A stretch of 64,000 bases of DNA from Papaver somniferum (lineage: Eukaryota > Streptophyta > Magnoliopsida > Ranunculales > Papaveraceae): contig NC_039360.1 in the NCBI RefSeq assembly GCF_003573695.1, positions 65,163,911 to 65,227,910 on the forward strand. Direction: 5' to 3'. Position 1 is the stretch's first letter. Each line of letters starts with the position of its first letter. Of the stretch, positions 19,974 through 62,366 are shown one piece after another. The notes beneath the pieces are model-generated. The model saw only the letters and a list, made by a program, of their open reading frames with translations. It did no database searches and had not been told where the DNA came from. Position numbers and translations under genes: made by a program.

Positions 19974-19976
19974 AAA

Positions 19977-19994
19977 TGGCGCCGCCGACGCGGA
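19977..19994 (+). promoter_or_regulatory. Degenerate tRNA-Asp-type primer site
   Basis: TGGCGCCGCCGACGCGGA begins three bases after the LTR and matches the Athila-type site at 55885 in most positions. The mismatches fall in the second half. Confidence 0.55.
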
Positions 19995-21432: not shown

Positions 21433-21481
21433 ATTTCCAAAATAGTCTTCCAATTTTACCCTTGATGTAAATAGTGAATAT

Positions 21482-23295: not shown

Positions 23296-23333
<38 letters not shown>

Positions 23334-24100: not shown

Positions 24101-25627
24101 TGATAGACACATTTTTGTGTCTAATATGTCTCAATTGTATGCATTGTTACTGCTCGATTTTATATTTATTGTGTGATTTTATGTCTTTGTAGGTATTTTT
24201 AGAGAAATAAGCCCTTGCGGCGAAATGGGCTCAAAAAGCAGTGTTTTACACCCCCGGAAAAATGTGCCGGAGGCACCCAGAAATTCACCGGAAACGTCCC
24301 AGAAATATCCCGGAGGAACCCAGAAAAATTACTATTTCAGCCCCAAATTGCTAAAGGGACACCAGAACTGGATTAGGGGGAGATCAGTTTTCCTCCCAAA
24401 ATTTGAATGAAAAATTTGGCGGGAAAGAATTGTTTCACGTCTGACAGTTAAGAATCGAGATTTTGGGCTATCCATGAAGAGATTAAAGCTATGATTTCTC
24501 TTGGGCTTGTTTCTTAGCCCTCATCAGGCGAGGAAAGGGTATTGGAATGGATCCAAATTGTCTGGATAAGACGATCAAGAGCTAAACAGGGTATACGTGA
24601 ATATTCTGGGAGATAATCTCGAGAATTTGTTCACAACAGGGACCGGGAATATCTCTGGTGATTGGTTCGGATATATGGAAGTTATTTGAGAATATATTCA
24701 CTGCGACGTTGGATTCTATGTTTAGAATATATACAAGGAAATCTCGGTGATTCCTGTGAGAGTAAAGAGAAAATATTCTTGCATTCAACCGAGAGGATTC
24801 AGAGTTATGACGAGATATTTTCATCCCCTGTTGGCTATATAAAGAGGTTACGAGACTCAGAGAAGACGGTCGAGAGTTGGGAGGAGAGAAGGAACGCTGC
24901 AGATCGAGAACCATGATTTCTCTCTGCTGCTGCTGCTGCCATGGATGAAGATGAAGAACACGAAGAACGGACTCGCAGAAGCAGTCGTTTATCAACAGTG
25001 TCTAAGACGTACACGCGTGGGTCGTAGTTCTTCGTACAACAGCAGTTAACATTTATCGTTCTTTTTGTAACAGCTGAACAGCGCCTTTGCAACAGTTATT
25101 TCTGTTGCGATTTTTCTGTTCAATTGTTTTACTCATTTTTATCATTTGTAAACAACTTTTTGAGCAATAAATAATTATTTTGAGAGCATTTTTACTATGA
25201 TGAGCTAAAACCCAACACTGGGACGACGGAGGAGGCCAAACTTCATACTTGGGGTAATTTCATTAATTCTTTTTAAGACTTTTGCATTAATTTAAAATTG
25301 AAATATGATTTGAATTAATTGGTTGTTATTTAATTTGATGATGTATGCTTGGCTTAGGTGTTTTGATACATCATGCTTAGGACTTACAACCAATGTTTTG
25401 AGAATCGACTTTGGCAAAATAAGAGTCCATATATGTTTTGAGCTATTATTGTTGAGAATAAATCATTAACCCTTATGTTATGAAGATTGGCCGAATCATT
25501 AGTCCCAGTAACTCTCTACCAATTTTTCAATATTTGTATATATATTTTTAAATCTAAAAATCCATTACCTTCACAAGTCCGAGAGTTTGAACCTTTATTA
25601 CTACAACCACCACGAAATCTTTAATCA
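24101..25627 (+). repeat. 3' LTR of the nested Athila-like element
   Basis: It runs from TGATAGACACATTTTTG to CTTTAATCA, followed by CTTGG. The TATA box TATATAAAG is at 24836-24844. The central 24883-25150 block differs strongly from the 5' LTR, while the flanking parts agree closely. Confidence 0.85.
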
Positions 25628-27690
25628 CTTGGCTTTATCCCATTACTGCTACGCATCTCTCTTCTTCACCTCTATCTCCATCTTTTACTTCCTATGAAAT
25701 ATCTATTACTACAATCCCTTCGTATCCTGTGCAATCAATCCCTTCTTCTTCTGCTCATGACTTTTCTACAAATTCCACATTTTTTTCGTCTTCACCAGCC
25801 CATTTTTCTTCACCGACACATTCTCCTTTACCATTGTCTCCTCGACGTCTCTCCTTTTCTAATACCAATACTACTTCCTCTACATCATCTTCTCCTATAA
25901 TATCTCATGTTGCTCCACTCTCTTCTAATGTACCATCTTTAGCATCCTCTCCATATGATTCTCCTTCTCTATCTACATCAACAGCGGACTTGCCTGCTGT
26001 ACAGGAGCTCCCTCAGTCGACTGCTAATACTCATCATATGGTTACTAGACTCAAGAATCACACTATTCAACCTAGAATCTTTAAAGGTTGTATTTCTACT
26101 CGATATCCCATATTGCAGTGTTTTGCATCTCAATTTAACTCACTTCCCTCTGATCCTACTTGCTTTACTGCTGCATCTAAATTCAAGGAATGGTGGGCAG
26201 CCATGCTTGAAGAATTTAATGCTCTTTTGTGCAATCGTACTTGGTCACTTGTTCCTCGTCGCTTTGGTATGAATGTTATTGGTTCAAAATGGGTATATCG
26301 TGTGAAGCAGAAATCTGATGACTCTCTTGACATACGTAAAGCACGCCTTATTGCTATGGGTTACTCACAACAATATGAAATTGATTATGATGATACCTTT
26401 AGCCCAGTTGTAAAGCCAGTCACAGTTCGTCTAGTTCTCAGCATTGCAGTCTCTTGTTCTTGGCCAATCAAGCAACTTGATGTTAAGAACGCGTTTCTAC
26501 ATGGTTCACTTGATCAAGAAGTATATATGGAACAACCTCAGGGATTCATAGACCCTCTTTATCCTAATCATGTTTGCTTATTGCATAAGGCTCTTTATGG
26601 TTTGAAACAAGCTCCTCGTGCATGGTTTCATCGCTTTGATGCTTTTCTATTGGATATTGGGTTCAAATCTTCACATTATGATCATTCAATATTAATTAAA
26701 CAATCAAGTAGTGGTATTCTCATCTTATTTCTATATGTTGATGATATAATTATCACTGGAAGTGATACTGTAGGTCTCCAAAATCTTCTGCCTACGCTTC
26801 AACAAGAATTCTCTATGAAAGATTTAGGGGACTTACTCTATTTTCTTGGTCTGGAAGCTACACGAACTAAGGACGGTTTGGTTTTAACTCAAAATAGATA
26901 CACATTGGATCTTTTAAAAAGGGTTGATCTTTCTGATTCAAAACCAGTCTCTACTCCTGTTTCGCCTCGTTCTAAACTGTCATCAACTGATGCTGCTTTG
27001 TTTCCTGACATTACATTACATCGCAGCCTGGTTGGAGGATTACAATATCTTAACATGACACGACCTGACATCACTTATGCATTTAATCAGGTTAGTCAGT
27101 TTATGCATCGACCAACTCAATCTCACTTTAAGGCTGTGAAGCGTATATTTTGGTATCTTAAGGGCACACTTGGTCATGACATCTCCTTTTGGCGCCATAA
27201 TCCTATGCAGCTCACGAATTTTTTTGATGCTGATTGGGGAGGTGATCCTGATACTTCTCGCTCTACCACAGGTCATTGCATTTTATTAGGTAAGAATCTT
27301 ATTTCATGGGGATCTAAAAAGCAACCATCAGTTTCTACTAGCAGTACTGAGGCTGAGTATCGTGCTTTATCTTTTACATCTGCTGAACTTACATGGATTC
27401 AATATTTACCGCATGATCTTGGTTCATCTTTAAAGCAGCCACCAACTCTGTATTGTGATAATATCAGTGCTACTTATCTTGCCATTAATCCTATTCAGCA
27501 TTCAAGATCAAAGCATATTCAAATTCATTATCATTTTGTCAGAGAGCGTATATCATCAGGACATCTACAACTATGTTAGATTGCTATTGCACATCAGCTT
27601 GCTGATTTGTTTACCAAAGGTATGTCCACTACAAGATTTGTTTTTCTTTGTAGCAAGCTTTCACGTTGTCTATCATCGCGTACAACTTGA
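25628..27690 (+). pseudogene. Copia reverse transcriptase-RNase H part
   Basis: This continues the Copia pol gene after the CTTGG duplication. A Ser/Pro/Thr-rich linker is followed by the reverse transcriptase: WWAAMLEEFNALLCNRTW, GSKWVYRVK, ARLIAMGYSQQ, LDVKNAFLHGSLDQEVYM and QAPRAWFHRFD. The catalytic motif is FLYVDDIIITGS. RNase H then follows (DADWGGDPDTSRSTTG, STEAEYRAL, LYCDN). The frame is open from 25729 to TAG 27577-27579; beyond it the same frame still reads AHQLADLFTKG, the expected C-terminal end, to a TGA near 27690. Only one nonsense codon thus lies in this half. Confidence 0.9.
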
Positions 27691-38983: not shown

Positions 38984-41337
38984 TGTATGTTGTCGAAGGA
39001 ATTACTAGCTGTGTTTGCTGATTAGCTTACATGGCTGAACTTAGTGGGCAATACCAATGAATATAAACTTTACGTGAATCAGGAGGGCTTAACTTTAGTT
39101 CGCTTCTCCTGCTTTAAACAGTTAAAACTTGAAAAATTTTCTATAAATTGGAGTTTTTGGTACCAATGCACTTGCAGTCTTCAAGGGAAAATGTTATGTC
39201 AAGCATGACTTGCCTGGCTGCAATTAGTAGAAAAGTGTTGATATTTATGTTTTCTTTGCAGAGTGCACCTCATGTGCTTTATTTCTTCATATTTTCATTA
39301 AAGTATTTGTTGTCTGGATGAATTTCTGTAGTATCATTTACCTGATGTTGTCATTTTTGTTCATAGAAATGGAGCACAAAAGTTGTTGGGTATTTTGATA
39401 GCTGTTGGTGAGGCTGTTGCCTATGTTCTGTCTGGAATGTATGGTAGTGTTGGCCAACTTGGAGTTGGAAATGCAATCCTTATCATTATCCAACTCTGCT
39501 TTGCTGGAATCATTGTGATATGCTTAGATGAGCTTCTTCAGAAAGGATATGGTCTTGGGTCTGGTATTTCCCTATTTATCGCAACCAATATCTGGTAATT
39601 ACTCTTCCACTCTTCATTTCTTGCTCTTGGGAGTCTTGTTCCATGCCACCCCCCTGATTTGTTTCGTTTCCTTGTAGTGAAAACATCATTTGGAAAGCTT
39701 TTAGCCCCACAACCATTAACAGTGGACGGGGAGCTGAATTTGAAGGTGCTGTTATAGCCTTGTTCCATCTATTGATAACGCGAACAGACAAGGTCCGTGC
39801 GCTCCGTGAGGCTTTTTACCGACAAAACCTTCCGAATGTTACAAATCTACTAGCGACAGTCTTGATCTTCCTAATTGTCATTTACTTCCAAGGGTTCCGG
39901 GTTGTGTTGCCTGTAAGGTCTAAAAACGCACGTGGACAGCAAGGGTCATATCCAATCAAGCTTTTCTACACCTCCAACATGCCCATCATTTTACAGTCTG
40001 CACTAGTTTCAAATCTTTATTTCATTTCCCAGGTAAAAATATAGCAGGGTTGGTTTATAATTTTATTCTTATTTTGCAATCAAAAGATTAAGAACTCAAC
40101 ATCAATATTATTTTGTACAGTTGCTGTACAGGAGGTACAGCGGCAATTTCCTCGTAAATCTTTTAGGCAAATGGAAGGAGTCTGAATATTCAGGTGGCCA
40201 GTTCATTCCTGTTGGTGGTATAGCGTACTATATCACTGCGCCATCAAGGTTTGTAGTAACCTTTTTTCTTCCATATTATTTCTCCTGTGGCGATTAATGA
40301 GCAAATTGAATTTGCGTTGCTTTTTTAGTTTTTTTATGGTGCTAATTTGTCTTACTGATATTGGGATCTCAATTCGCAGCTTGGCTGATATGGCAGCCAA
40401 TCCTTTCCACGCATTGTTTTATCTTGTGTTTATGCTGTCAGCATGTGCACTATTCTCGAAAACATGGATCGAAGTTTCTGGATCTTCTGCTAGAGATGTT
40501 GCCAAGCAACTCAAGGTATGATAATCTGTTCATGTTAGTGTGTTGTCTAAGTACTGCTGTACTATAGAGGCATTTAAAAATTTAGGTTAAGCATATATGA
40601 GTATGATGTTGCTGTAGCAAAGATAGAAATTTGATTATTCCATAGATAGCTCAGCTTGAGCCTGGCATCATCCAGATGTTGCTGGTGTCAACTTCGTTTG
40701 TCTGGTCCAGGTATCTGGACTCATCTTGTTGGTCTTGTGAATGGCGACTAAGGTTATGTAATTTTATGTAGACTAGGTTTAGTTATGAAGTTACGGTCAT
40801 ATTATGTGTTTGTGTTGGCCATCAGAATTATTTTTCTGGTCCGATAATGACCGTCGCCCCTCTTTGTTTGTCATAGTTGTGTAAACATTAAGCTTAATAT
40901 ATCACATGAAAAGTTGTTAGACACCTGGTTACATCTTCTGTGATTTACAGAAACAACATCTTTTAACAATTGTGATTTTTGTTCAAACTATATTGGGAGA
41001 GTAAACTTAGAGAAAAAGCTCTGATCTTGATTTTTTTTTCCCATACTGTACTTGGAAATTAACAAAGTTGTACTCTCTTTTGCCTGGTGATCTTTAGGAG
41101 CAACAAATGGTGATGCCTGGGCATCGAGAATCAAATTTACAAAAGGAACTTAACCGTTACATACCTACTGCAGCAGCCTTTGGAGGAATGTGTATTGGGG
41201 CTTTAACTGTTTTGGCAGATTTCATGGGAGCTATAGGTTCTGGAACTGGGATTCTTCTTGCTGTCACAATTATATATCAGTATTTTGAGACATTTGAGAA
41301 GGAAAGAGCAAGCGAGCTAGGTTTCTTTGGCCTCTAG
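38409..41337 (+). CDS. SEC61A: Protein transport protein Sec61 subunit alpha
   Basis: Seven coding exons join in frame at 38409-38752, 39367-39594, 39678-40032, 40121-40248, 40380-40515 and 41098-41337 (the first of these follows a leader exon, so six coding exons in total). All introns have GT-AG borders. The product is 476 residues, the usual length for plant Sec61 alpha. It begins [20 protein letters not shown] and includes SecY-family signatures ([38 protein letters not shown]). It ends in the last transmembrane helix with [14 protein letters not shown]. Sec61 alpha is the multi-spanning pore of the endoplasmic reticulum translocon, working with Sec61 beta and gamma for co-translational import and membrane insertion. 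I see no frameshift or stop. Intron 1 of the coding part carries a 40-base poly-T run. A PIF/Harbinger element begins 253 bp after the stop. Confidence 0.95.
38943..38982 (+). repeat. Poly-T run of 40 bases in a Sec61 alpha intron
   Basis: This is an uninterrupted T mononucleotide run inside the first coding-region intron (38753-39366). It is length-prone to sequencing error and polymorphism. Confidence 0.95.
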
Positions 41338-41586: not shown

Positions 41587-41589
41587 TAA

Positions 41590-41604
41590 GAGCGTCCACA
41601 GTGG
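41590..41604 (+). repeat. Left terminal inverted repeat of the Harbinger element
   Basis: GAGCGTCCACAGTGG follows the target duplication TAA. It agrees with the inverted right end at most of the conserved Harbinger positions (GAGC..C..CA.TGG). The following AAAACCAAAGATCAAAGACC also resembles ACCAAAACCAAATTCC of the inverted right end. Confidence 0.75.
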
Positions 41605-41698
41605 TACGATCAAAACCAAAGATCAAAGACCAAAACAAACGATCAAATTTGAGTTTAGTCTGTAGTGTCACGTTAAGGCAGTGAAGTATATTCAGTCG

Positions 41699-42176
41699 GG
41701 CGGACGTATAATCCACGCTTGCATGTGGAGCGTTGGTATAATCTTCGTTTGGGCCGGGCGGAGATATAGTTAACGCTGGTTGTGGGGCGTTGGTAAAGAA
41801 TACGCTTGTTGTGGGGCGTACATATATTTCACGCTCGGAGAAGGGGCGTTTGTATAATCTACGCCTGGTGTGGCGAACGTATAATCAACGCCTGAATGAA
41901 GCGTTAGTATAATCAACGCCTGTTTTGAGGCGGACGTATAATCAACGCCTGTTTCAGGCGAACGTATAATCAACGCCTGTTTTTAGGCGTACGTATAATC
42001 AACGCCTGACGTGGGGCGAACGTATAATCAACGCCTGTTTTGAGGCGTAAGTATAATCAACGCCTGTTTGAGGCGAACGTATAATCAACGCCTGACGTGG
42101 GGCGTACGTATAATCAACGCCTCCTCTTCTCTCATGCGAATGAAGGAATCAACGCCTCATGGCAGGCGTACGTATA
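41699..42176 (+). repeat. Left subterminal array, ~16 units of ~27 bp
   Basis: Units follow the pattern GGCG(A/T)ACGTATAATCAACGCCTG with 3-8 variable bases (for example TTTTGA, ACGTGG). The outer units, nearest the terminus, are the most diverged; the inner ones (41880-42120) are nearly identical. CGCC and GGCG in each unit can pair, so single strands could form a row of small hairpins. CpG density is far above the neighbourhood. Confidence 0.9.
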
Positions 42177-42434
42177 GTGTTGGACTTCTATTAACACACG
42201 TATCTACCACGTGTGGCATTAAAGCCCGGCCAATCTCTAACCACCACGTATAGCCCACGTGTTCACTTTCCCTTTACCCTAATCTTCTCCGTCTTCTTCT
42301 TTTCTTTTCTACCTCCTCTTTGTTTCTTTGTTTCTACCGCCCACAAACACAGCTTCTTAACAAAAACATCACAGTGACGAGCAGTAAAAGAAAAGAAAAA
42401 ACCAAGATACTTGATGAACCCGGGTTACAAAAGA
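42177..42434 (+). promoter_or_regulatory. Probable promoter and leader of the PMD-like gene
   Basis: Two G-boxes CACGTG (42208-42213 and 42256-42261) lie in related contexts (ACGTATCTACCACGTGTGGC and ACGTATAGCCCACGTGTTC). They are followed by a CCAAT box in between (42221-42230) and a pyrimidine-rich leader (42280-42335). A splice donor GAG/GTATGT lies at 42434-42435, after the short upstream ATG 42413. This looks like a leader exon joined to the acceptor GCACAG at 43483. The first ATG does not run in frame into the main ORF. Confidence 0.5.
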
Positions 42435-43483
42435 GGTATGTTTTTTTTTTTCTTAATCTCTTTTATTTTATCCATATTGTTGTATAATTTATTTAGGGTT
42501 TTATTTGTTAAAAATAGTTTATCTAAAATTTGGTTTTAACGAACAAATATGAATATGAAATTGGTTAAATTTAATTGGGTATGTGTGTTTTATGTTTTTT
42601 TAGAGATTAATATGTATGTGAAAAAAACCATATTTGATGATTATGTAAATTTGGTTAAATTTTTTTTTTAAAATAGTTAGATTTATTAGAGCTTCCACAG
42701 TGGTTGTAAAAATTTATTTGTGGGTATTGTAATAGTTTGATTTGTGGGTATTGTAAATTTTTATTTGATTTATAATCTATTCACTAAAATTTATTAGAGC
42801 TTCCACGGTGTTATTGTAAAAATTTGATGAGATGGGATTTTTGGGTATTGTAAAAATCCGTGGTTATGTAGATTATGTGGGAAATAGTTCTCACCCTTCA
42901 ACTGTTTCAATCAACCTATTTCAATTGAGAGCTTCCTTTTATTGTTTTTCTTCATGTTGTCTGTTGGTAATTAATTTTAGTGAATATGGTTATCAATAAT
43001 TGTAGTTATGTAAATTATTGGATTAATTTTAAATTATTTTAAATTATTGTAGTTATGTAAATTATTGGATTAATTATTGGTTTTCTGCATGTTGTATGTG
43101 AATATGGTTACCAATAATTGAATTTGTATTGTTTTTTATTGAATTTTGAGGTGATTAATTTTAGTTATGTAAATTGTAGTTATGTAAATTTTGGGAGTTA
43201 CATATGTAGAAGAGCTAATTGCGTGAGTATGGAATTGATTTTTTAGTGATTTTTATGGAATCTTGAAGTGATTAAATTGAGTTGTGGAATCTTGTAATGA
43301 TTTTGGAAATGCATCGGTGACGATTTAATTTGTGTTTCTGGAATTATAGAATTTGGAATTGATATGGTTTGTGTTAAGGATTTATAGTATTTGGAATATA
43401 AATGGTGATGGACTAATAAAAATATTCGTTAATGAGGGTTGGTCTTTTAATAATGTAACGGCATCTATATTGTGTGTGCACAG
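42435..43483 (+). other. Leader intron of the PMD-like gene
   Basis: AT-rich intron-like DNA ends in TGTGTGTGCACAG. It contains two direct copies of TTAGAGCTTCCAC(A/G)GTG at 42687 and 42795 (108-bp period). Both resemble the transposon's own left terminal repeat with its TTA/TAA context. Confidence 0.5.
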
Positions 43484-45613
43484 ATGTTGAACAAATTCAC
43501 AGCGCGTTTCAATGGTCGCGTGAAGACAAACAAGAAACAAAAATCTGTAGCCGAAGAGGATTATAACTTAATCGCTACTGGTACAATTAAGGAGGTTGAT
43601 ATTCCCCGGTTAGGTAGGTTTCCTATACTGCAAGATGATAAACCGCACGCTACTACGGACATCACATTTACAGGGGAGCACAAATTGAAGTATCAACATC
43701 GTGGATCTTTGGCATCGGTAATTCATCACTATCAAACTATTTCACAACACTGTCCTAGAGCTAAATATATTATTGAAAAAGCGGGATGGCAAAATTTACT
43801 GGACATACAATGTAGCGAAACCAACCATTCAATGGTTGATTATATTGCTGAGCGGTTTTGGGATACAACAAACACTTTTCACTTCCCATTTGGTGAGACG
43901 GGATTCACCCCCTAGATTGGCTCATGTTGACTGGACTGAGTATCGGTGATGGGCCTGATGTTCCTTATGATTCGGGGAAGTACCAATTTGAACATGTTCG
44001 TGAGCATATCTTTCCGGATATCCAAGATGTCACGCTCTGTCCAAAAGCACCGTCGTGGGTTTCAAATTCAATTACAATTAAATATTTAAGGTCATATTTC
44101 ATCGAAGACAAGTTGGTTGCGGCTGAAAATGATAGCACCCTTGCTCATAGAGTAGCAATTGCCTTTTTCATGTATGTTTTGGGACATTTTTTCTTTTCTA
44201 ATGCAAAGACTTATATTGATGCTGGATGGTTAGCTGCTTTTGAAAATCTTGATGTAGTATCCACGTATGACTGGGGTGGTGCTGCGTTTTCGAAATTGTA
44301 TGCGGCACTCCGTTTATCTGGGAGGAGACAGAAGGCACTATGTGGTCCATTCCAAGTATTAGAGGTATTCTTTCAATCTAGTTATTTTTCCTCTCATTGT
44401 TTATTTTGTTGCTAAGTTATTAAATTGGCTAATTATTTTGATGGAGTAGTTTTGGGGGTATGAATACCTGGGCATATGTCGACCAGAAATCCCAGAGGCG
44501 AGTACAGAACAAAAATGGCCCGTATCTTCTAAATGGAATGTACCGAAGAATACAAATGATATTTTCCGTTGTAGGGATTTACTAAGTAAGCTTACTGCTG
44601 AACAAGTGACATGGCGCCCATGGGAATCATACAGAGAAGTTCTTGCATCTGATATGGGATGCACGGCTATGCGGCTATCAGACTCGAGATATATATTTTC
44701 TTACATGGGCATTGTGAGTTAATTTGTAAATTTTATTATATAACATACTTTTTTTCTATATAACATACTTACTATATAACATACTTTTTTCCTATATAAC
44801 ATACTTACTAAATTCTTATTCCCTTTCTAACTGTACATCACAACATGTATCTTGGTGAAAGGTGTTGGCGGCAAAACCATTGTACTTTCGCTGTTCCTAT
44901 AAGACTACACACAGTTATAGGGGATATTGGCAATATTCAAGCCGAACGCCTAAAAAAAGAAGGTTTGGTCGATGCAACAGAGATAGTGCAAGTTGTTAAA
45001 GATTATGATATATATTTACAATACTGGACAATGGTAACCAACTCCAAAGATTACGTGACTCATCCTATTTGGGAAGCCCAAACATATGGGTATGTCGGTG
45101 ACTTGTATACGGTCCCAATTGAACAACCTGTTGAACATGTACATATCCCTCCTCCACATCTATCATCCCACGTAAGTGTACTTTCGACTTTTTATTGTAC
45201 GTTCGATTTTTGTTGGTATATTTGTACTTATATATTTTATTTTTTCTTCACAGCATGAAGCTTACACATTATTTCAAGAAAATGCTGATTTTAATCAACA
45301 ATTTCGCGAATTTACAATAAAACAAACGAAGGAGAGGATGGACGTTATCATGTCGAAAGAAGCAGAAATACAAAGGCTAAATAATGCGAACGTTGATTTG
45401 CAGCAACAACTATCTCTTTTCCGTATGCCGCACACTGTCCAACCTCAGCTTGGATACGGTTCCTTTTCCCAAACCCTGCCATCACAAGTTTGGAGTGGTA
45501 TGAATCAGGGATCAGCTTCAACAATGTCCTCAGTCAATACCAATCCGAGAACGCACATGCCTTTTGTGGCACCAAGATCGTCCACTTCGGATAATGATAA
45601 TATGAAGGGTTAA
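43484..45613 (+). pseudogene. Plant mobile domain (PMD/MAIN-like) gene, damaged
   Basis: Coding blocks at 43484-44364, 44450-44713, about 44845-45171 and 45254-45613 read as one protein. Motifs are IEKAGWQNLLDIQ, YIAERFWDTTNTFHFPFGET and LDWLMLTGLSIGDGPDVPYD. Then come AFFMYVLGHFFFSN, SKLYAALRLSGRR, WGYEYLGICRPEIPE and YLGERCWRQ. This order is that of the PMD (PF10536) fold found in MAIN/MAIL proteins and some transposons. A Gln/Glu-rich coiled-coil segment (KEAEIQRLNNANVDLQQQL) and a Ser/Thr-rich tail follow. Two defects are visible. A 1-base shift lies in the C run at 43908-43912, where the product otherwise continues TPLDWLML. No AG acceptor precedes the third block. Host PMD proteins act in transcription and silencing; the role inside a transposon is unknown. 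Either defect might be a sequencing error. Confidence 0.7.
44735..44808 (+). repeat. Short tandem repeat in a PMD-gene intron
   Basis: Four copies of CTATATAACATACTT with alternating ACTA and T-run spacers form an ~18-20 bp period inside the intron that lacks a visible acceptor. Confidence 0.75.
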
Positions 45614-45887
45614 TTTGTTATGACTATTTAGATGAACTGTCTTTGGAGTTATCTTTTCTTATCTTATATAGTATAGTCATATCATATATAGTATAGTCTA
45701 ATCATATATAGTATTGTCATATCAGGTCACTGACAAACACTTTATCTTTTTTGGAAAACACATTTGCGTGAACCCAAAAAAATATCTATTTTTGGTTTTT
45801 TTAATGCTCTTGAAAATGGGTTATAAATTAAAGACTGGTTTCACTCAATATATGAATAACAATACATCTCTTCTGCTTCATATAGCA
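45614..45887 (+). promoter_or_regulatory. Spacer upstream of the transposase ORF
   Basis: Three near copies of CATATATAGTATAGTC (45664-45722) precede the transposase frame. The frame remains open back to 45714, with in-frame ATGs at about 45816 and 45852 before the preferred ATG 45888. A promoter or intron border could lie here. No other gene is seen. Confidence 0.4.
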
Positions 45888-47201
45888 ATGGAAAAATATG
45901 AGAAAACCGCTCATTATTGCTCTTCTGTTTCTTCTTCATCTTCTTCTTCTAATAGTAGTTTTTATTCCTCGGATGATGATGCAATAGCAATTATGCAAAA
46001 TAACATGGCCGTTAGTTTGGGAGTCCTTGTTACAAATTCAAAATGGCCTCAAACTCGTATCAGAATACCAAGAGATCGTGAGTCAGGGGCTGAACTTCTA
46101 TGGAACGACTATTTCTCTCCGTACCCAAACCAACCACTCAATGTTTTTCGCAGAAGATTTAGAATGCGTCGACAATTGTTTAACCGGATAGTGGAAGGTG
46201 TTACCAATGCAAACAGATATTTTGTTCAAAAGCCCGATGCTTGTGGAGTTTTAGGATTAAACCCTCATCAAAAAGTAACAGCAGCAGTACGAATGTTAGC
46301 TTACGGATGTGCGGCAGATGCAATAGACGAGTACTTACGCATAGGAGAAACAACTGTGCTGGAAGCTACTCGTAGGTTCTGTAAGACGATTGTGAATTTG
46401 TATGGGAAAGAATATTTGCGTGAACCAACGGCTGGTGATATTGAACTGTTGCTCAAGCAAAACAAAGACCGGGGATTTCCTGGGATGCTGGGTAGTCTAG
46501 ATTGCATGCATTGGAAATGGGATAAATGTCTGTCGGCAGAATCTGGGGCTTACACCGCGTATAAAGGGAGCGAAAGTATCGTGTTGGAGGCAGTGGTGTC
46601 GTATGACCTATGGTTTTGGCATGCTTTTTTTGGTATGCCCGGTTCTAACAACGATATTAATGTTATGAACCGTTCATATGTTTTTCGAAGTCTTGTAACA
46701 GGAAAAGCACCGCCGGTGAGCTATGAGGTGAACGAACATTCATATGATATGCCGTATTATCTAGGTGATGGAATATACCCAGAGATTCCTACTATTATTA
46801 CGGCCATTAAACATCCGGTGGGTAGGAAAAAGGAAATATTTTCATCGATGCAAGAGGGTGCAAGAAAAGATGTTGAACGGGGATTTGGTGTACTTCAACA
46901 ACAATTTGGAATCATCAAACAACCTGCAAGAATGTGGAATCCAGATGTGCTTGCCTATATCATGAAAACTTGTATTATCTTACATAATATGATAGTCGAG
47001 GATGAGCGTCTACCCGGTGACTGGCCACATGTTTATGAACAACTTAGCAACGCAACACCGGTTAATATATTAAGAGGCAATAATGACGAGTTTTCCCAAA
47101 TTAGAGCTCAGCAACGCCGATGTGCAATGCGTAACAAAGATGCACATATTCGCTTGCGTGATGACTTGATCGAATATATATGGGCAGAATATGGGAATTA
47201 A
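45888..47201 (+). CDS. PIF/Harbinger DDE transposase
   Basis: From ATG 45888 it encodes 437 residues; the frame is open 58 codons further upstream, so an earlier ATG is possible. After a Ser-rich N-terminus it carries the DDE_Tnp_4 (Harbinger) fold. There is an RMRRQLFNRIVEGV helix region, then the first catalytic Asp in MLGSLDCMHWKW (residue ~205). The second is in GMPGSNNDINVMNRS (~256), and the Glu is in KDVERGFGVLQQQF (~330). These sit in the usual order and spacing, followed by CIILHNMIVEDER, a family signature. It would cut and rejoin the element at TTA/TAA targets, together with the ORF1 protein encoded convergently at 47445-48393. No stop or frameshift is present. The C-terminus ends normally at YGN. 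Confidence 0.92.
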   Translation: MEKYEKTAHYCSSVSSSSSSSNSSFYSSDDDAIAIMQNNMAVSLGVLVTNSKWPQTRIRIPRDRESGAELLWNDYFSPYPNQPLNVFRRRFRMRRQLFNRIVEGVTNANRYFVQKPDACGVLGLNPHQKVTAAVRMLAYGCAADAIDEYLRIGETTVLEATRRFCKTIVNLYGKEYLREPTAGDIELLLKQNKDRGFPGMLGSLDCMHWKWDKCLSAESGAYTAYKGSESIVLEAVVSYDLWFWHAFFGMPGSNNDINVMNRSYVFRSLVTGKAPPVSYEVNEHSYDMPYYLGDGIYPEIPTIITAIKHPVGRKKEIFSSMQEGARKDVERGFGVLQQQFGIIKQPARMWNPDVLAYIMKTCIILHNMIVEDERLPGDWPHVYEQLSNATPVNILRGNNDEFSQIRAQQRRCAMRNKDAHIRLRDDLIEYIWAEYGN

Positions 47202-47444
47202 AAATTGTCGTTTGTCATTTCCTTTCTATTATCTCTTTGTATGTAAACATCCTCAAGTTTTAATTAAGGTCGTATGTTTCAAAAAAGTAGAAATTTAATT
47301 CAAATCAACGGAAGTAAATTTAAAATCCAAAAATTACATAATAATAATGCTAATTGTTCAGATACTAAGAAATTTAAAACATAATAATACTACTAATCAC
47401 TAAATAGGAGAAATAATTAAGGTTTGAACTATTCCGCCTTTGTG
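47202..47444. terminator. Convergent 3' region between transposase and ORF1
   Basis: The 243-bp AT-rich spacer lies between the stop codons of the convergent genes and must hold both polyadenylation regions. AATAATAATGC-type runs are present. I see no further gene. Confidence 0.4.
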
Positions 47445-48393
47445 TTAAGATTGGTTTCTTTTATTCCGAACTATGTCCGCCCTGCGAAGTCGGAAGTACT
47501 CTTGTTGTACAGGTTCCATTTTTTCAAGATCCATCATAATGATGCGAAATTCTTCGTCTTCAGCTTGCTTGGCTATTTTTGCAGCATGTTCAGCTTGTTT
47601 TGCTGCAAACTCTGCTGCTCTTTGTTCCATCTTGAATCTTGATTGTGCTTGGTAATGAGTATTGAAATTTTGTTGTTCTTTAATAATTATTCCCATCAAT
47701 TCCTCTTGGTGACTGGATTTCTCTCTCCCTGTTTTCTTCAATCTTTTTGCTGCTTTTTTCCCCATCTTACGAAGATATGTGTTCTCTATGTCTCCCCCAT
47801 CTGTGTCGTTACCGGTCTCTCCTTGAGTTGTTGTTTGCGGTCCTTCATCATCTTCCTCGTTATTCTCATAAGTGTCCAAATCATGCGTCGTATCGAATAC
47901 AAAAGTCGATCGTCGATTATATTTTATATTTTCTAACACAACTTGGTAGCACTCTTCGTGCTTAAATTTTTTCCCATCGTTGCATTCCTTGAACCTCTTG
48001 TTAACTTCTTCAAGCTGTTAATGTTTTTAAAAACACTTAAGTACATGGGCGCTTATTAAATATTAGAAAACAATGGTTGGAAAAATCAAGAATGCTTACC
48101 TTCTTTTCAGGACCCCATCCAGTATGATATTCACCTTCAACTTCTGCCTCTTTTGCTGAAAATAACGCCACATCTTTACTTATTCCCTGATATCGTTTTT
48201 GCCAAGAACTCCAAGACCGCTCTGGATTATTAGGTAAATGAAGTTCAATATCATCCTTGATACGAGTCCACAACGTCGCCTCTGATTGATCAGCTCCAAC
48301 ACTAGAATCTTGAGATATAGATAAATGAATTTTACACATTGTTACATCTTCGATTGTCGTAAAATTTGGACCTCGTGCTACTCTTGGTGCCAT
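47445..48393 (-). CDS. Harbinger ORF1, Myb/SANT-like DNA-binding protein
   Basis: Two exons on the minus strand, 48393-48100 and 48014-47445, join in phase (donor GTAAGC, acceptor TTAACAG) into about 287 residues. It begins MAPRVARGPNFTTIEDVTMC. The N-terminal half has a trihelix/Myb-like pattern with spaced Trp residues (LWTRIKDDIELHLP, RSWSSWQKRYQGISKDVALF) and the conserved GWGPEKK. The second exon is rich in Lys/Glu with a coiled-coil segment (MEQRAAEFAAKQAEHAAKIA). It ends in an EYFRLRRADIVRNKR stretch like the NAM-associated C-terminal region of Harbinger ORF1. Such ORF1 proteins bind transposon ends and bring the transposase into the nucleus. The frame is intact. An upstream in-frame extension to 48579 is probably 5' UTR. 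Confidence 0.85.
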
Positions 48394-48529
48394 TGTAAGC
48401 GAATCCGTGAAAATTTTCCAACTGATTTGAAAGCAGAAACAATATTTCTTCTTATTGGTGTGGATAGTTTGAAGTATTGGTCGTGGGAAAATGTCACAGG
48501 ATCTCATCTGTATATATAGGTGTTTCTTC

Positions 48530-48625
48530 CGAAAAAACCGAAATGTCTTCCAAACTTTCCAACGTTCCAAATTATCCAACGTTCCATTTTCTTCAACGTT
48601 CCATTTTCTTCAACGGTCGAATTAC
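48530..48625 (-). promoter_or_regulatory. CAACG(TT/GG) cluster upstream of ORF1
   Basis: Five copies of CAACGTT or CAACGG fall within about 80 bases, three as TTCAACGTTCC or TCCAACGTTCC. They lie roughly 150-230 bases upstream of the ORF1 start codon, between the gene and the right array. AACG cores are typical Myb targets, so self-regulation is possible (inference only). Confidence 0.4.
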
Positions 48626-48690
48626 CAACGGTATAAAAAAATTTCAAAATCAATTTTGTCTAAGTATTTTTTTTTTTTAAACTCAAGCTT

Positions 48691-49080
48691 GGGGCGTTAA
48701 CTATATCAACGCCGGGATGGGGCGTTAATTATATCACCGCCTGGCATGGGGCGTTAATTATATCACCGCCTGTCTGGGGCGTTAACTATATAAACGCCTG
48801 GCGTGAGGCGTTAACTATATCAACGCCTGAATGGGGCGTACACTTTATCAACGCCTGGCGTGGGGCGTTAAGAATATCAACGCCGGGCTGGGGCGTTTGT
48901 ATAATCTTCGTCTGAATGGGGCGTTCATTTTATTAACGCCTGACGTGGGGCGTAAACTTTATCAACGTCCCAACGGGCGAACATTTTATCAACGCCTGAA
49001 CCGGGCGTAACTTATATACACGCCTCTTTATGGGGCGGTGACTTTACGTACGTTTCAGGCGTAAATTATATATACGCCCG
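48691..49080 (+). repeat. Right subterminal array, ~14 units of ~28 bp
   Basis: Units read GGGGCGTTAACTATATCAACGCCTG plus 3-5 variable bases (GCAT, GCGT, AAT). GGCGTT and AACGCC flank an A/T core in each, forming a 6-bp inverted pair. The consensus is the same as at the left end and in the same orientation, with ATATC replacing TAATC. The outermost units (48960-49080) are again the most diverged. Confidence 0.9.
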
Positions 49081-49235
49081 ATGCCAAACGGTGATTATAC
49101 CTCCGCTCCACTATATATAGTTTTGGTCTTGGTCCCAGACCAAATATGGTCTGGAATTTGGTTTTGGTCCAGATTTTAGTCTTTACTCCGTCCCGTTGCG
49201 TTTCGTCCCTGGATCATAATTATAGGTTTACTCGT

Positions 49236-49250
49236 CCATTGCAGTTGCTC
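49236..49250 (-). repeat. Right terminal inverted repeat of the Harbinger element
   Basis: Inverted it reads GAGCAACTGCAATGG, matching GAGC..C..CA.TGG of the left end. TAA follows at 49251-49253. Confidence 0.75.
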
Positions 49251-49253
49251 TAA

Positions 49254-51538: not shown

Positions 51539-53863
51539 TGTTAGAGCATAGCTCGGTCAACCTCGCATGCGTTGCTATATCAAGCATGTTTGTCAATGTT
51601 AGTGATCAAAACTATGAGTCTTGATTTCTAGTCTATTATAGCTAAGTCTCGGACTAGGATAGAAAAGTGTAGTTGAGCTCAAGGACTTCATGGCGATTCC
51701 TTATACAACTACGAAAATCTACTCAAGGAACCGTGGAACTTCATCAACAAAAAGGTATGTGGAGACTTGAACCTATCTATCACTCAAAAGTCTATCTATT
51801 CTATCTCCTACTTCTTATGAGACAAAAAGTCGTATGCTATATAGACTGGATCATACACAATTGATATTTCGAGCTGAGTATTCACTACTTATCTTTTTCT
51901 TGAAATCGTGTGTTGGTAAAGCGTTTCGCTTTGATCAAGTTTATCTTCACCTAGTGACGAAAGTCATGAAAAGTTTCAATTACTTTGAGAATTGCTCTGA
52001 CGTGAAACGGTTTGTGAATAACGGCTATATAACGTCCTCTGAGAATGTCACAATGATTGGAATGAGAGTTTAGATTACATAACCATGTATTCTTTAATCC
52101 GAAGTTCTCTTACCGAGAATTTCTGCTGGGATTTTCCAAAAACTCGTTTGCGTGTTTAGTCCGCGAACCTAGTCCGCGAACTGGCGGAAGTCTCTTTGCC
52201 GAGATTTTATGCTGAGTTTGGAAAACTCTGCCGGTTGCCTTAAGTCCGCGAACTTGTTTGTGAGCTTAAGTGGTTATGATCTAAAGATGTGCTCTGAACA
52301 TGAAACTTAAATTACTAAGGAATTCTTTATGCAAACCGTGTCTATAAAATTCATGAGCCGATTCATCGAATCGAATCATCTTTGTTTCAATTGTGTCTTG
52401 TGTAGTTACATAAGATCTCATAGCAATTGAACAACTCTCTAACTAGTTCATTTGAGTCAATTGAACTAGTTATGGTGAAGAAGAACTAGGTTAATATGAA
52501 ATGCTCATATGGTTAACCTTTTGGGTTACTATGTTGAACCAACATACATGTACACGTTTGGGCACGATTTTCACAAACCCAGTAAACGTCTAGCCAAGTG
52601 TGTGTGACAAGCTAAGTTTTCGATCTAATGGTTGAGAAATATTAGCTTGAATCTAAATCAGGTTTTCATCTAACGGTGAATATGGATTGCTTTGTAACTA
52701 AGGCAAAACCCTGATTTTAAGACTATATATAGGAGACATCTAGCATTGTGCAAAACTAATCCCCACACGTCTGTGTGATACTAGTGCGCTCGCTAGAGTC
52801 GATTCTCCTTTAACCTTTAGTTTTCTTCTCTAAAACCAGGTTAACGACTTAAAGACTTCATTGGGATTATGAAGCCAGACCGATACTACTTTTATCGTAG
52901 TTGTGTAATCTGATCTTGCATCTTCTATCGTACGAGTACAATATTTGATTGGATTGAGATCGTGAGAGTTCTCCGATAGGCAAGATAAAGAAGTCACAAA
53001 CATCTTCGTCTCACTGTTTGTGATTCCTCGACAAACCGCTTGTGTAGTCAAGAAGGAATGTTGAGAGGTGATTGATTAATCTAGGCTGTTCTTCGGGAAT
53101 ATAAGACCGGATTATCAATTGGTTCCTATTGACCTTGATTTTATATCTTAAGACAGAACAAAACCTAGGGTTTTTCTGTGGGAGACAGATTTATCCTTTG
53201 ATAGACTTTTCTGTGTGAGACAGATTTGTTTTTTATCAAGTCTGTGATTTTGGGTTGCAGCAACTCTTAGTTGTGGGTGAGATCAGCTAAGGGAATCAAG
53301 TGCGCAGTATCCTGCTGGGATCAGAGGCGTAGGAGTACAACTGTACCTTGGATCGGTGGGAGACTGATTGGGGTTCAACTATAGTCCAGTCCGAAGTTAT
53401 CTTGGAGTAGGCTAGTTTCTGTAGCGGCTTAATACAGTGTGTCTTCAATCTGGACTAGGTCCCGGGGTTTTTCTGCATTTGCGGTTTCCTCTTTAACAAA
53501 ACTTCTGGTGTCTGTGTTATTTCTTTTCCGCATTATATTTTTTATATAATTGAAATAATACAGGTTGTGTGTTAAAGATCATTGATTGGAAATCCAACCT
53601 TTGGTTGTTGATTGATATTGATTGATCCTTGGACATTGGTCTTTGGTACCGTCCAAGTTATCTCTCTTTGATAAAGACTCGCAGATTTCCATTTGCTTGA
53701 GTAAAGATCAAATCGAGAGATTTAGATATAAAATCTTTGATATATCTTTTTATTGATTGAGTCTAACTGTCTAGTTGATTCTCATAAAAAGTATATTGGA
53801 GTTTGTCCATATAGATTGCTAAGCGAAATATTGGGTGGTGTTGTTAGACCCCCCGTCTTTTCA
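51539..53863 (+). repeat. Large Copia LTR (2325 bp)
   Basis: It starts TGTTAGAGCATAGCTCGG and ends CCCCCCGTCTTTTCA. A TATA box TATATATAGG lies near 52724-52733, placing the promoter midway along the LTR. ORFs such as 51673-51864 recur in the other copy but have no coding support. Confidence 0.8.
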
Positions 53864-55902: not shown

Positions 55903-56928
55903 CTCGGTAGCGGTGCTGTGTTCTTTCTTTGTTTTTTTTCTTGCATTCTCATCCATCTTAGCTTCATTCTTGCATCTTACATGTTGTTCTTGCTGTCTTG
56001 TTCTTGCTTCCTGTACATGTTTACATCTTGCTGTTCTAATATTATACATTTGCATCTTTAGCTCAGTTTTTGTTGTTAGCATTCTAGTAGCATACTCTTC
56101 CTTCTTAACTTGCATAAATCATTGCATTTCCTCTTATTTGTTGTTACATCTTGCAACCTCAGCTTGCATACATCTTAGCTGTGCATCTCCTATCTTGTAT
56201 TTGCACTCTTGCTTTCTTACAGTTGCACTGACATGCAGCCCTTGCTGCTGCTGCATTCCCCTGGTTCTGCTTCTGGTGCAGCTTCTCCTTGCTGATGCTG
56301 CTAGGCCCTGCCTTATTGAGCTGCTGCTAGTAGTGTTGAGAAGCTGCTGGGCTAGAAGTCCTCTGATGGGCTGTGCAAGCCTGTTGAGTTGTGGTCTTGT
56401 GAGCTGCTGGGCCTGTTGCTGAAGGGCTTGTGCTATTGAGCTGTTGCTGAGAACCATCAAAGCCCAACTGGGTTTCCCTCCAAAAAGGTAAGCCTAACCT
56501 TTTAGCTAAGCCCAACTGGGCCTCATTAAAATTTATTGGGTTTGTAATTAAGTGTTTATATTTGGACTTGTAATAATTTTTTTTTTTTTTTTTTTTATTA
56601 TTATTTTTTCTGTGGGCTTGTAATTTAATTTAGACTGTGGGCTCCTAGCTTAAAAAAAAAAAAAAAAAAACTCCTGTTAGGCTTCAAATTTTTGAGCCCA
56701 ATCCAACTTCACCCAACTAGGCCCAGCTCTCAAACAACCCAACTGGGCCTCATTTAAACCAAATTTTGGGCTCCTCCTTTTCATTAAAACCAAAATTTTG
56801 CTCTCAATTCAAAACCAAATTTTGAAACCCAACAAAACCAAACTTTCTAAAAACCCTTTTAAAACCAAATTGTGGGCTTTGTTTTCTCCATTATCTGTAG
56901 GCTTGTTATTTCATGATTAATTTGGGAT
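55903..56928 (+). other. Athila leader region
   Basis: The Leu/Cys-rich frame at 55913-56422 is probably not coding; it results from CTTGC/TGCTG repeats. Poly-T (56578-56597) and poly-A (56653-56670) runs and repeated GGGCTT/CCCAACTGGG text fill the rest. Confidence 0.5.
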
Positions 56929-58495
56929 ATGATTGTAACCTTTAGAGACCAATCAAATAGACTAATTAGAGTCAATCCAGTAGACCCAATTGACATACCC
57001 ACAACTTCTGAGGAAAACAAACCGGACCAACCTGAGACAATGGGAGAACCCCGTACTCTCAAGGATTACATGTACCCCACAAGGGCAAGCCAGCCCTCCT
57101 GTATTGTTTTGCCAGAAGCTAATGGTCATTATGAGCTAAAATCAAGCACAATACAAATGCTTCCTGTGTTTAGAGGAGTCGACAATGAAAACCCTTACCA
57201 TCACGTGAGAGAATTTGAGGAGATATGTGGAACTATACGTTTCACTCAAATGTCCGACGAGACCCTAAAGTTAAGGCTATTTCCTTTCTCTTTGAAGGAA
57301 AAAGCCAAGGCCTGGATGTATGCTTTACAACCACAATCCATCATGACATGGGACGACCTCACAAAGGAGTTTTTCAAAAAATTCTTCCCAAATCACAAGA
57401 CTGCGACAATTCGTCAAAGTCTGAATAGCTTTGTGCAATTGGAGGGTGAAACCTTAGCTAGATACCTGGAGAGATTCAATGAATTATTGCTCCAATGTCC
57501 CCACCATGGTTTTGAAAAATGGAGACTTGTGCAAATTTTGTATGAGGGTCTAGATGTGTCCACCCGAACAACTGTAGAGTCAATGTGCAATGGGCTATTC
57601 GTAAACAAAACTGCTGATGCGTCTTGGGACTTCTTAATTGAAGTAGCTGAGAAGACTCAACAGTGGGAATCCATTCGTGAACCCAGGAAGACTACACCTG
57701 TAGCTAAGGTTCATAGGATTGAGTCAGATTTTGAGGGAAGTGCAAAAATCGCATCATTAGTTAGGAGAATAGAAGAGTTAGAGATGCAAAAAATATCAAA
57801 CCTTCTAACACTACTCTCCGTGAACATGTCGAAATGTCCGTATGTGCTGCTTGTCATGATCCCGACCATCAACTCAGTAACTCCCAGATTTGCTTGCACT
57901 CCAGGAATCTAGGCTTGAGCAAGCACACGCTATGTTTCAAAAACAAGAGCATAACCCCTATTCTCAGACCTACAATCCAGGATGGAGAAACCACCCAAAT
58001 TTTTCATGGTCCAAAGGCCCTGCTCAAGGAGGACCATCTCAACCCAATCAATGCTATCAAAACAATCAAGGCTATCAATACCCTAGAAATCCTCAGCAGC
58101 AGTCGTACCCTCAATACACTGCTGAAAAGAAATTGTCTAGCATTGAAGAGAGTATCAATCAGTTGACCCAACATCTGCTGAAAAATGAGAAAGCGACTGA
58201 TCAACGAGTCTCAGCTCTGGAACTACAGATAGGTCAAATTTGCGATACACTGAACACAAGAGAAAAGGGTAAACTTCCTAGCCCCCCAACAAAATCCAAA
58301 AGAATATTTCAAGCAGGCACATCATCTTGCGATGAAACCTCACCCGATCAAGTCCATTCCATCACCACTCTCCGAAGTGGTAAGATTGTTGAGAACAATA
58401 TAGGCATGCCACAAACAAATGAATCTGAGCCAAACTTAGCACTGCCTACCACCAAAGGAAACCTCCAGTTTAGAAAAAGAGTCCGAGCACATTAG
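56929..58495 (+). pseudogene. Athila Gag, frameshifted
   Basis: The N-terminal frame (56929-~57797) carries the Athila Gag domain: LKDYMYPTRASQPSCIVLP, FRGVDNENPYHHVREFEEIC, LFPFSLKEKAKAWMY, FFKKFFPNHKT and RYLERFNELLLQCPHHGF. One frame change near 57797 leads into a Cys/His motif CAACHDPDHQLSNSQIC. Another near 57880 continues into MFQKQEHNPYSQTYNPGW and a Gln/Asn/Pro-rich tail that ends at 58495. The two shifts would truncate the nucleocapsid part. The first ATG context (56929) is chosen by the longest frame; the ATG at 57040 is another option. Confidence 0.85.
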
Positions 58496-58514
58496 TGAAG
58501 CCGACAATCCCACT

Positions 58515-61500
58515 GTGAATGTCCCTTTACCTCCTAATGCTCCTGTTGCTCCATATCCTCAGAGGTTAGTTCATCAACAGAAAAGCACCCACTACAATGA
58601 GATGTTAGAAATGTTCAAAAGAGTCAACATCAACATTCCTTTTCTTGAGGCAATTAAGCAAATCCCTGCATATGCCAAATTCCTCAAAGACTTGTGTACT
58701 CAAAAGCGCAAGCTTAATGTGCACAAACGTGCTTTCTTAGCTGAACAGGTGAGTTCCATCATTCTGAACAAAACTCCACCCAAGTTTAAGGACCCAGGTT
58801 GTCCAACAATTTCTTGCACTATAGGAAAACACACGGTCAATAGAGCTTTATTAGATCTAGGTGCAAGTGTGAACCTTCTGCCATATTCTGTTTATGAGCA
58901 GTTAGGTCTTGGAGAGTTGAAACCAACACCCATAACTCTCCAATTGGCAGACCGATCCGTCAAAGTTCCTCGTGGGGTGGTAGAAGATGTTTTGATTAAG
59001 GTTAAAATTCTACTTTCCTGTAGACTTCATTGTCTTAGACACTCAACCTGTACAAAACCCAGACTGTCACATTCCTCATTTTAGGACGTCCTTTCTTGGC
59101 AACGTCCAATGCGATCATCAATTGTCGTAATGGAGTGTTGAAACTGTCTTTTGGAAACATGACTGTAGAATTGAATGCGTTTAATGTTAGTCAAACATGT
59201 GAGTCTTGGATGAAGATGTACATGAGATTAATATGATGGAGAGTTTGATACAAGATTCACTGACTAGCATTTTATCAATAGATCCCTTGCAAGCATGTCT
59301 GGAAGAAGTTAACTTGGAGTTGTATGATGATGAATACATTGGTGAAGTCCAATCTTTGCTCGAATCTGTACCTCATATGGACATCACTGAATGGCAGACT
59401 AAAGTGGAACAACTCCCACTTTCTGAGAAGTCTGTTATATCTTCGGATGAGTCTCCTAAGGCCAAACAGGAATTGAAACCATTACCTGATACTTTGAAGT
59501 ATGCATTTCTAGGTCCTTCTGATACCTTACCTGTTATCATTTCTTCACGATTAAACATAGAACAGGAAAACAAGCTTTTAGCAGTACTTAAGGAGCAGAA
59601 AGAAGCCTTAGGATGGACCATCTCAGATCTCAAAGGAATAAGTCCCACCATTTGCATGCACCACATTAATCTTGAAGAGAATGCCAAACCATCTAGGGAA
59701 ATGCAAAGGAGACTTAATCCTAACATGAGAGATGTTGTTAAGAGTGAGATCTTGAAACTACTTGATGCGGGTACCATATATCCGATTTCATATAGTAAAT
59801 GGGTGAGTCCCATTCAAGTTGTGCCTAAGAAGTCAGGCATTACTGTAGTTCAGAACGAAAAGAATGAGTTAGTCCCTTCACGTACAACCACAGGATGGCG
59901 AGTATGTATCGACTACAGGAAGTTGAACACAGTAACAAGAAAAGATCACTTCCCCCATCCCTTCATAGACCAAATGCTAGAACGTGTGTCTGGACACAAT
60001 CACTACTGTTTTCTAGATGGCTTTTCCGGTCATAACCAAATTCACATTGCACCGGAAGATCAGGAAAAAACTACATTCACGTGTCCATTTGGGACATTTT
60101 CCTTTAGACGTATGCCCTTCGGGCTGTGTAATGCACCTGCTACTTTTCAGCGTTGCATGATGAGCATTTTTTCAGACATGATAGATAGTTTTCTCGAGAT
60201 CTTTATGGATGATTTCTCTGTGTTTGGTTCCTCTTTTGACGAATGTTTGGACCATCTTGTCCTTGTGCTGTCTAGATGTAAACAAAGGAGTCTGATTTTA
60301 AATTGGGAAAAATGCCATTTTATGGTGAACTCCGGCATAGTTCTAGGACACATCGTCTCAGAAAAAGGAATTGAAGTAGATAAAGATAAAGTCGACCTCA
60401 TTCAACATTTACCACAACCCCACTCTGTGAAGGGGATTCGATCATTTCTAGGTCACGCTGGTTTTTACCGGCGATTCATCAAAAACTTTAGCCAAATATC
60501 AAGACCTCTGTGTAATCTACTTGCAAAAGATGTTTTCTTTAACTTCGATGCTGCTTGTGTGAAGGCGTGGGAAGAACTCAAGACTCTCCTTACCCCAGCT
60601 CCTATTGTCCAACCACCCGACTGGAAACTACCATTCGAACTCATGTGTGATGCCTCTGATTATGCCATTGGCGCTGTTTTAGGACAACGCGTTGATAGAC
60701 TACCATATGTGATATACTATGCTAGTAAAACTCTTAATGATGCTCAACTCAATTATTCGACTACCGAGAAGGAGTTACTGCCGTGGTATTTGCATTAGAC
60801 AAGTTTAGATCTTATTTGATAGGATCTAAGATCATCATATACACTGACCATGCGGCTTTGAGATTCCTTATTTCTAAGAAGGATGCTAAATCTCGCCTTA
60901 TTCGACGAATACTCTTATTACAGGAATTCGACATCGAAATCCGTGATAAGAAAGGTTGTGAGAATGTGGTTGCTGATCACTTGTCCCGATTAACTAATGA
61001 GTCTATTGATGAATCTGTGCTGATTAGAGAATCATTCCCTGATGAACAATTGATGTCTGTGTCAAACCTTCCTTGGTTTGCCGACATTGTTAACTACCTT
61101 GCTACAGGTAGAATGCCCTCACATTGGTCGATACAAGACCGCTCCAAGTTCTTGGTTGTAGTTAAACATTTCCTTTGGGACGACCCATATTTGTTTAAGT
61201 ACTACCGAGACCAAATCATTAGGAGATGTGTCCCCAACATTGAAAAGAAAGAAGTGATATCGTTCTGTCATGACCAAGCATGTGGAGGGCATTTCAGCGC
61301 CAAAAAAACTGCTGCAAAGATCTTGCAGTGTGGGTTTTACTGGCCATCGCTGTTTAGAGACTGCCATGAGTATTGTATTGCTTGTGAGCGATGTCAAAAG
61401 CTAGGAAGTATTTCGAGGAGAAACATGATGCCGTTGAATCCGATTTTGATCGTTGAGCTATTTGATGTGTGGGGGGATTGACTTCATGGGTCCATTTCCT

Positions 61501-62366
61501 ACTTCTGAAGGCAAATTATACATCTTAGTTGCTGTTGATTACGTTTCTAAATGGGTTGAAGCTGTTGCAACCAAGACAAATGACCACAAGGTGGTACTCT
61601 CATTTCTGAAGGAGAACATATTTTCACGTTTTGGTACCCCTAGAGCTATAATCAGTGATGGTGGTTCACATTTCTGTAACAAGTACTTTGAGTCTTTAGT
61701 AGCAAGTATGGCATAACTCACAAGGTTGCAACTCCGTACCATCCTCAGACGAGTGGACAAGTAGAAGTTTCTAATAGGGAGATTAAGCACATTCTGGAGA
61801 AGACGGTCAACCCGTCGAGAAAAGATTGGTCATTAAGACTGAATGATGCTTTGTGGGCCTATAGAACAACTTATAAGACACCAATTGGCATGTCCCCTTA
61901 TCGTCTGGTGTATAGAAATCCATGTCATCTACCTGTGGAATTAGAACATCGAGCTTACTGGGCTATCAAGAAACTTAACTTTTCTCTCGACAAGGCAGGT
62001 GCTCAACGGAAACTTCAACTCAATGAGTTAGAAGAATTAAGGAATGATGCTTATGACAGTGCCAGGATGTATAAGCAAAAGATGAAGTTGTTTCATGATA
62101 AGCGTATTCTGCGCAAGTCATTCACACCGGGTCAGAAAGTTTTGTTATACGAATCTCAGTTGCATCTTTTTCCAGGAAAATTGCGGTCCAGATGGACCGG
62201 CCCGTTCCTAGTACGCACGATATTCCCTCATGGAGCTGTGGAACTTGAAGATGTCTCCAACAAGAACATTTTCAAAGTGAACGGGCAAAGATTGAAACCG
62301 TTCCTTGAACCAATTCCACCTGACAGTGAGACAACCGATCTGGAGGAACCCGTCTATGTGGCCTGA
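58515..62366 (+). pseudogene. Athila Pol (PR-RT-RH-IN), frameshifted
   Basis: Segments follow the Gypsy order. Protease has the active site in LLDLGASVNLLPYSVYEQLG, with a shift near 59010. Reverse transcriptase reads VCIDYRKLNTVTRKDHFPHP, FLDGFSGHNQI, RMPFGLCNAPATFQRCM and the catalytic IFMDDFSVF. RNase H has LMCDASDYAIGAVLG, with a shift near 60783 just after STTEKELL. Integrase has the HHCC zinc finger ending in CIACERCQK, then a shift near 61465, [20 protein letters not shown], another shift near 61705, and the catalytic Glu in [11 protein letters not shown]. It ends with a GPFLV-type C-terminal domain. At least four frame changes make it defective. The stop is at 62366. Confidence 0.9.

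Follow-up and report, generated by a model that had tools for sequence, protein, structure and literature searches.

Plant mobile domains and anti-silencing genes in transposable elements

The VANDAL elements of Arabidopsis, which belong to the Mutator-like element (MULE) superfamily, carry in VANC an anti-silencing gene that is distinct from the transposase gene and less conserved than it (the comparison being with VANA; PMC5735166), and the targets of its product are short motifs in non-coding tandem repeats that differ between related families (PMC5735166, PMC10398659). The plant mobile domain (PMD; Pfam PF10536) is classed as a domain of unknown function (PMC8616336) and is present both in host proteins, MAIN, MAIL1, MAIL2 and MAIL3, and in transposable elements. 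MULEs of grasses and Amborella have PMD-C fused to the MULE transposase, which has been read as the capture of host genes (Ikeda et al. 2017, PMC5418596), and Ty3/gypsy retrotransposons, class I elements without inverted repeats or a transposase, have PMD-A (PMC5418596, PMC9289625). Anti-silencing was speculated on by Ikeda et al. for the MULE-borne PMDs (PMC5418596), and VANC21 and the PMDs made by transposable elements are named side by side as counter-silencing in a review (PMC8616336). Canonical PIF/Harbinger elements, e.g., MtPH of Medicago, have a transposase, ORF1 and 3-bp target duplications, with subterminal tandem repeats in one subfamily; a third gene is not mentioned in the available portions of that paper (PMC2213677). 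Here we describe, at 41590..49250 of a 64,000-nucleotide stretch of Papaver somniferum DNA (the window; NC_039360.1, positions 65,163,911 to 65,227,910), a Pong-type PIF/Harbinger element which, in addition to these components, carries a PMD gene. The element belongs to a PIF/Harbinger lineage in which that gene is shared.

A PIF/Harbinger element with three genes

The element is 7,661 bp long, with the target duplication TAA on either side (41587..41589 and 49251..49253) and the terminal inverted repeats GAGCGTCCACAGTGG (41590..41604, plus strand) and, inverted, GAGCAACTGCAATGG (49236..49250, minus strand, terminal base 49250), so that the 3-bp duplication and repeats of the superfamily are both present, as the original prediction had read them. 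From left to right there follow an array of short repeats, the PMD gene, the transposase gene on the same strand, ORF1 on the opposite strand and a second array. The DDE transposase, correctly predicted to be intact, is an open frame of 437 amino acids (45888..47201, plus strand) with the Plant_tran and DDE_Tnp_4 matches of its superfamily (PF04827, 289.5 bits against a cut-off of 22; PF13359, 53.8 bits against 24.8). The element thus stands apart from VANDAL in its PF04827 transposase and 3-bp duplications, and from the MULEs with PMD-C in that the PMD gene is separate from the transposase gene and is present in two families.

ORF1 has two minus-strand exons, 48100..48393 and 47445..48014 (acceptor AG at 48016-48015), the second with a NAM-associated C-terminal domain, and together they give an open frame of 287 amino acids that matches PF14303 at 51.9 bits. 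The prediction of an intact Myb/SANT-like ORF1 holds for its intactness; as to its name, no Myb/SANT Pfam model matches at E 0.1. Its putative Myb/SANT label comes only from weak matches to fused Pong gene models, seven in number with a best E of 1.6e-7; P0028, the best match, has the Myb/trihelix domain PF13837.

The gene between the left array and the transposase has four plus-strand exons: 43484..44364 (881 nt), 44450..44713, 44839..45171 and 45254..45613, the last encoding a conserved tail and, in the model of the related protein P0001, a long helix. They are preceded by a predicted 5′ untranslated region intron (42436..43483, plus strand; GT...AG, placed by eye without a transcript). That this is a multi-exon PMD gene is borne out by the profile comparison, the joined exons of 43484-45613 (with an X at the frameshift) scoring 126.3 bits against PF10536 (E 2e-36; curated cut-off 34.9 bits), though of the unjoined pieces (18.8, 37.7 and 30.4 bits) one alone passes the cut-off. 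Its longest open run is 172 amino acids, and shuffles reach up to 201. The gene of the window copy is not intact, nor had the original prediction called it so: owing to a one-base frameshift exon 1 runs into a stop at 43913-43915, and exon 3 (44839) is preceded by AT instead of an AG acceptor.

Copies of the element across the genome

Is the PMD gene a peculiarity of one damaged copy? A transposase search of the same genome gave 86 scored matches (from 5,691 first-look candidates), all of at least 89% identity, and the flanks of the best 30 loci, the window copy (L001) included, were surveyed. In 28 of the 30 the tail of exon 1 and exons 2, 3 and 4 are directly upstream of the transposase gene, so that the gene occurs at the same place in other copies, a point that the original prediction had proposed to check. 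L003 has exons 3-4 only. At L025, with 95% protein identity and with ORF1 matches, the 1.5 kb preceding the transposase gave no PMD match; either a deletion or an insertion may account for this, or the locus may be a PMD-less variant. Among the 30 it is the one candidate for the PMD-less copies that the original prediction had named as a refutation. Outside the window copy, the exon 3 acceptor site is present in 28 loci and reads AG in 23 of them, and in 6 of 29 other loci the gene is lesion-free over the part covered.

Twelve longer stretches were read: the six of L031-L036 come from the list's top or bottom, and the six of L037-L042 were picked for being lesion-free in the covered part. All twelve keep the layout, with PMD and transposase genes facing ORF1. 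Identical 3-bp duplications (TTA, TAA and one TGA) flank ten, for two of which (L033 and L035) the position of the right end comes from its likeness to that of the window copy, and the left-end pattern is present in ten, not being found in L037 and L038. Four of the twelve, all from the picked six and none from the first six, retain an uninterrupted PMD frame of 612 amino acids and every splice signal, and in two of those four copies all three genes are open; for the share of intact copies the twelve are a non-random sample. The gene has lesions in most copies read, that of the window included, and the window's frameshift is common to eight of the twelve longer stretches.

A second, diverged family and constraint on the PMD gene

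P0001 is 50% identical to the window PMD, and its exon 1 recurs at 37 places in the genome with an identity of at least 93%. Two such places were read with their surroundings as L043, in which the transposase frame is broken, and L044; they define a second family with the same order and orientation of the three genes. At L044:941-8208 elements of this family follow one another head to tail, separated by a single TAA and with a period of ~7,269. Three of the family's PMD places on one contig (G000:C3552) are 7,267 and 7,270 apart, and two on another (C27754) 7,320 apart. This may reflect tandem insertion into an element's own duplication or another amplification route.

Between the families, PMD exon 1 has 56.2% identity, a synonymous divergence (dS) of 0.85 and a nonsynonymous to synonymous ratio (dN/dS) of 0.39; for the transposase the values are 74.6%, 0.82 and 0.20, for ORF1 exon 1 62.2%, 0.71 and 0.41, and for ORF1 exon 2 50.3%, 0.92 and 0.41. 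The PMD is thus less conserved than the transposase, as VANC is, and ORF1 is about as variable as the PMD. For 13 copies of the first family, compared by Nei-Gojobori in 78 pairs, the pooled dN/dS comes to 0.38 for the PMD gene, 0.64 for the transposase gene and 1.11 for ORF1, values that come from non-independent pairs and include decay after insertion. Because dS is similar in all three genes, they appear to have been in company since a common ancestor, in which the PMD gene would already have been present. The gene therefore looks inherited, being held by copies genome-wide and by a second family at a synonymous divergence close to that of the transposase and ORF1, and the earlier idea of a captured gene does not fit if a recent acquisition is meant.

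Subterminal arrays

The left array (41698..42180, plus strand; core GTATAATCAACGCC) is upstream of the PMD gene and the right one (48690..49090, plus strand; core TATATCAACGCC) upstream of ORF1, both being made of ~28-29-bp units. There are 9.6 CpG per 100 bp in 41690-42180 and 9.0 in 48680-49100, against 2.3 in the whole window, and the 14 most CpG-dense 400-bp tiles of the window all overlap the arrays. All 15 sites of the 9-mer ATCAACGCC in the window are within the arrays and on the plus strand, and each of the 13 stretches of the first family has 7-16 such sites on that strand and not more than one on the other. The 9-mer is absent from the two second-family stretches, which have at both ends CpG-rich arrays of ~28-bp units unlike those of the first family. 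The VANC21 motif YAGTATTAY, which the poppy array motif does not resemble, is missing from the arrays, its one site in the element being at 47392. As non-coding tandem units that differ between two families, the poppy arrays match the pattern reported for VANC targets.

Relatives of the PMD protein and a predicted likeness to VANC

The PF10536 profile found 16 PMD relatives, ten from Papaver (six P. somniferum, four P. atlanticum), five from other plants and one further row; none was found in viral and GTDB contigs. In the tree the Papaver rows, the further row and the window PMD form one clade (support 100/100), separated from the five other-plant PMDs by a branch of 1.32 changes per column, with 26-38% identity to them over 11-52% of the length. 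P0002 represents a third PMD lineage. PF10536 was in none of 120 listed transposase matches (of 140; ~576-1830 amino acids) where a fused PMD-transposase gene model could have shown itself. Two of the Pong transposases, P0097 and P0111 on separate contigs, have PF02902 (Ulp1 protease in the row name of one), another accessory domain in that clade.

By Pfam score the poppy protein is a PMD rather than a DUF1985 protein, in which it differs from VANC. Six of the 16 PMD proteins match DUF1985 at E ≤0.1, the best at 23 bits, and the window PMD reaches 19.1 bits in pieces and 15.1 bits joined, all below the cut-off of 35.1. Neither the PMD profile nor P0002 matched any PDB sequence. In structure prediction a putative likeness emerges, the modelled PMD fold apparently resembling that of VANC21 in its DNA-bound state (9lnj). 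Neither a structural link between PMD and VANC nor a PIF/Harbinger element with a PMD is in the available portions of PMC5418596 or PMC8616336, and among the literature matches listed none concerned a PMD in such an element and none held both ‘plant mobile domain’ and ‘DUF1985’.

What might the PMD protein do?

We favour, with moderate confidence, the view that the PMD protein of this Pong-type family counteracts silencing at the family's own elements, as VANC does for VANDAL. Made by an intact copy, the protein would act in trans on all members of its family, binding the array motif and removing DNA methylation around the PMD and ORF1 promoters; the transposase and ORF1 would then be expressed and the family mobilised, while other elements remained silent. 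As its PMD gene is broken, the window copy would rely on the protein of other copies. The spread of copies with broken PMD genes fits action in trans, and would fit a dispensable gene equally well. An influence on silencing, put forward originally as one example of what a third PMD gene of a PIF/Harbinger element might do, is on the predicted fold and the arrays its best-supported role, and the third gene itself is well established.

More tentatively, and with somewhat less assurance, PMD and VANC may be two branches of a single superfamily whose proteins bind DNA sequence-specifically, with MAIN and MAIL1 of the same fold family and the poppy elements having a VANC-type system of their own in which the motifs change with the protein. 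If the link to VANC21 is true, that PMDs bind specific DNA becomes a testable idea, and anti-silencing genes would be placed in a DNA-transposon superfamily in which the searches made found none. The two families, with proteins and array motifs that can be swapped, offer a direct test of co-evolution.

Might the protein serve transposition instead, as an architectural helper of the transposase and ORF1 that binds the arrays and has no effect on silencing? Transposon helper proteins often bind subterminal sites, and here the arrays are subterminal at both ends; the PMD gene also seems to be inherited along with the other two, and a VANC-like predicted fold would equally give DNA binding. Against this, two element proteins, ORF1 and the transposase, are named as the requirement for mobilisation in the superfamily (PMC2836001), and copies with the frameshifted PMD have still spread, so we consider a helper role unlikely, if the most deserving of attention among the alternatives.

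Less likely still is a decoy, or dominant negative, directed against the host MAIN-MAIL1-PP7L silencing complex without binding of element DNA. Transposon silencing depends on the PMD proteins MAIN and MAIL1, and PMDs made by transposable elements have been suggested as counter-silencing (PMC8616336, PMC5418596). The likeness is one of domain, however, the poppy PMDs being distant from the five of other plants and differing between the two families, which would be needless against a conserved host complex, and the arrays are left unexplained.

The lesions in most copies might suggest a gene without use, taken from the host in the past by Pack-type transduplication and kept as a passenger, yet dN/dS below one within and between families (for exon 1), the open frames in four of the twelve long copies and the sharing of the gene by two families at a dS of ~0.85 disfavour this, making it quite improbable. 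Unlike Pack-type elements, which carry host gene fragments without a transposase of their own, the poppy element has its own open transposase.

A stretch at 42679..42837, within the predicted 5′ untranslated region intron, has Harbinger-type left ends at 42689 and 42797 (TTAGAGCTTCCACAGTGG and one near copy). L034-L036, three of the six further long copies compared, have no alignment to it, and it probably represents the nested remains of a Tourist-like element and marks a subfamily. That the PMD gene itself belongs to another, nested transposon, as these inner ends and the PMD genes of Gypsy and MULE elements (PMC5418596) might suggest, is refuted for the copies read by the constant layout in the twelve and in the second family and by the lack of the inner stretch in the PMD-bearing L034-L036, and no other transposase or reverse transcriptase is among the scanned open reading frame pieces of the element, so that we give the notion hardly any credence.

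Other features of the window

A SecY/SEC61-type gene, with its C-terminal part at 41098-41337, ends ~250 bp upstream of where the element begins. Genes of Copia-type and Ty3/gypsy-type retrotransposons are present at 15930-27579 and 56917-62366, and 300-bp direct repeats at 18497/24101 (99%) and 54054/63647 (97%) resemble pairs of long terminal repeats. An inverted pair of copies, 11189-12432 and 51539-52702, lies ~40 kb apart, its members being 96-97% alike in the pieces listed.
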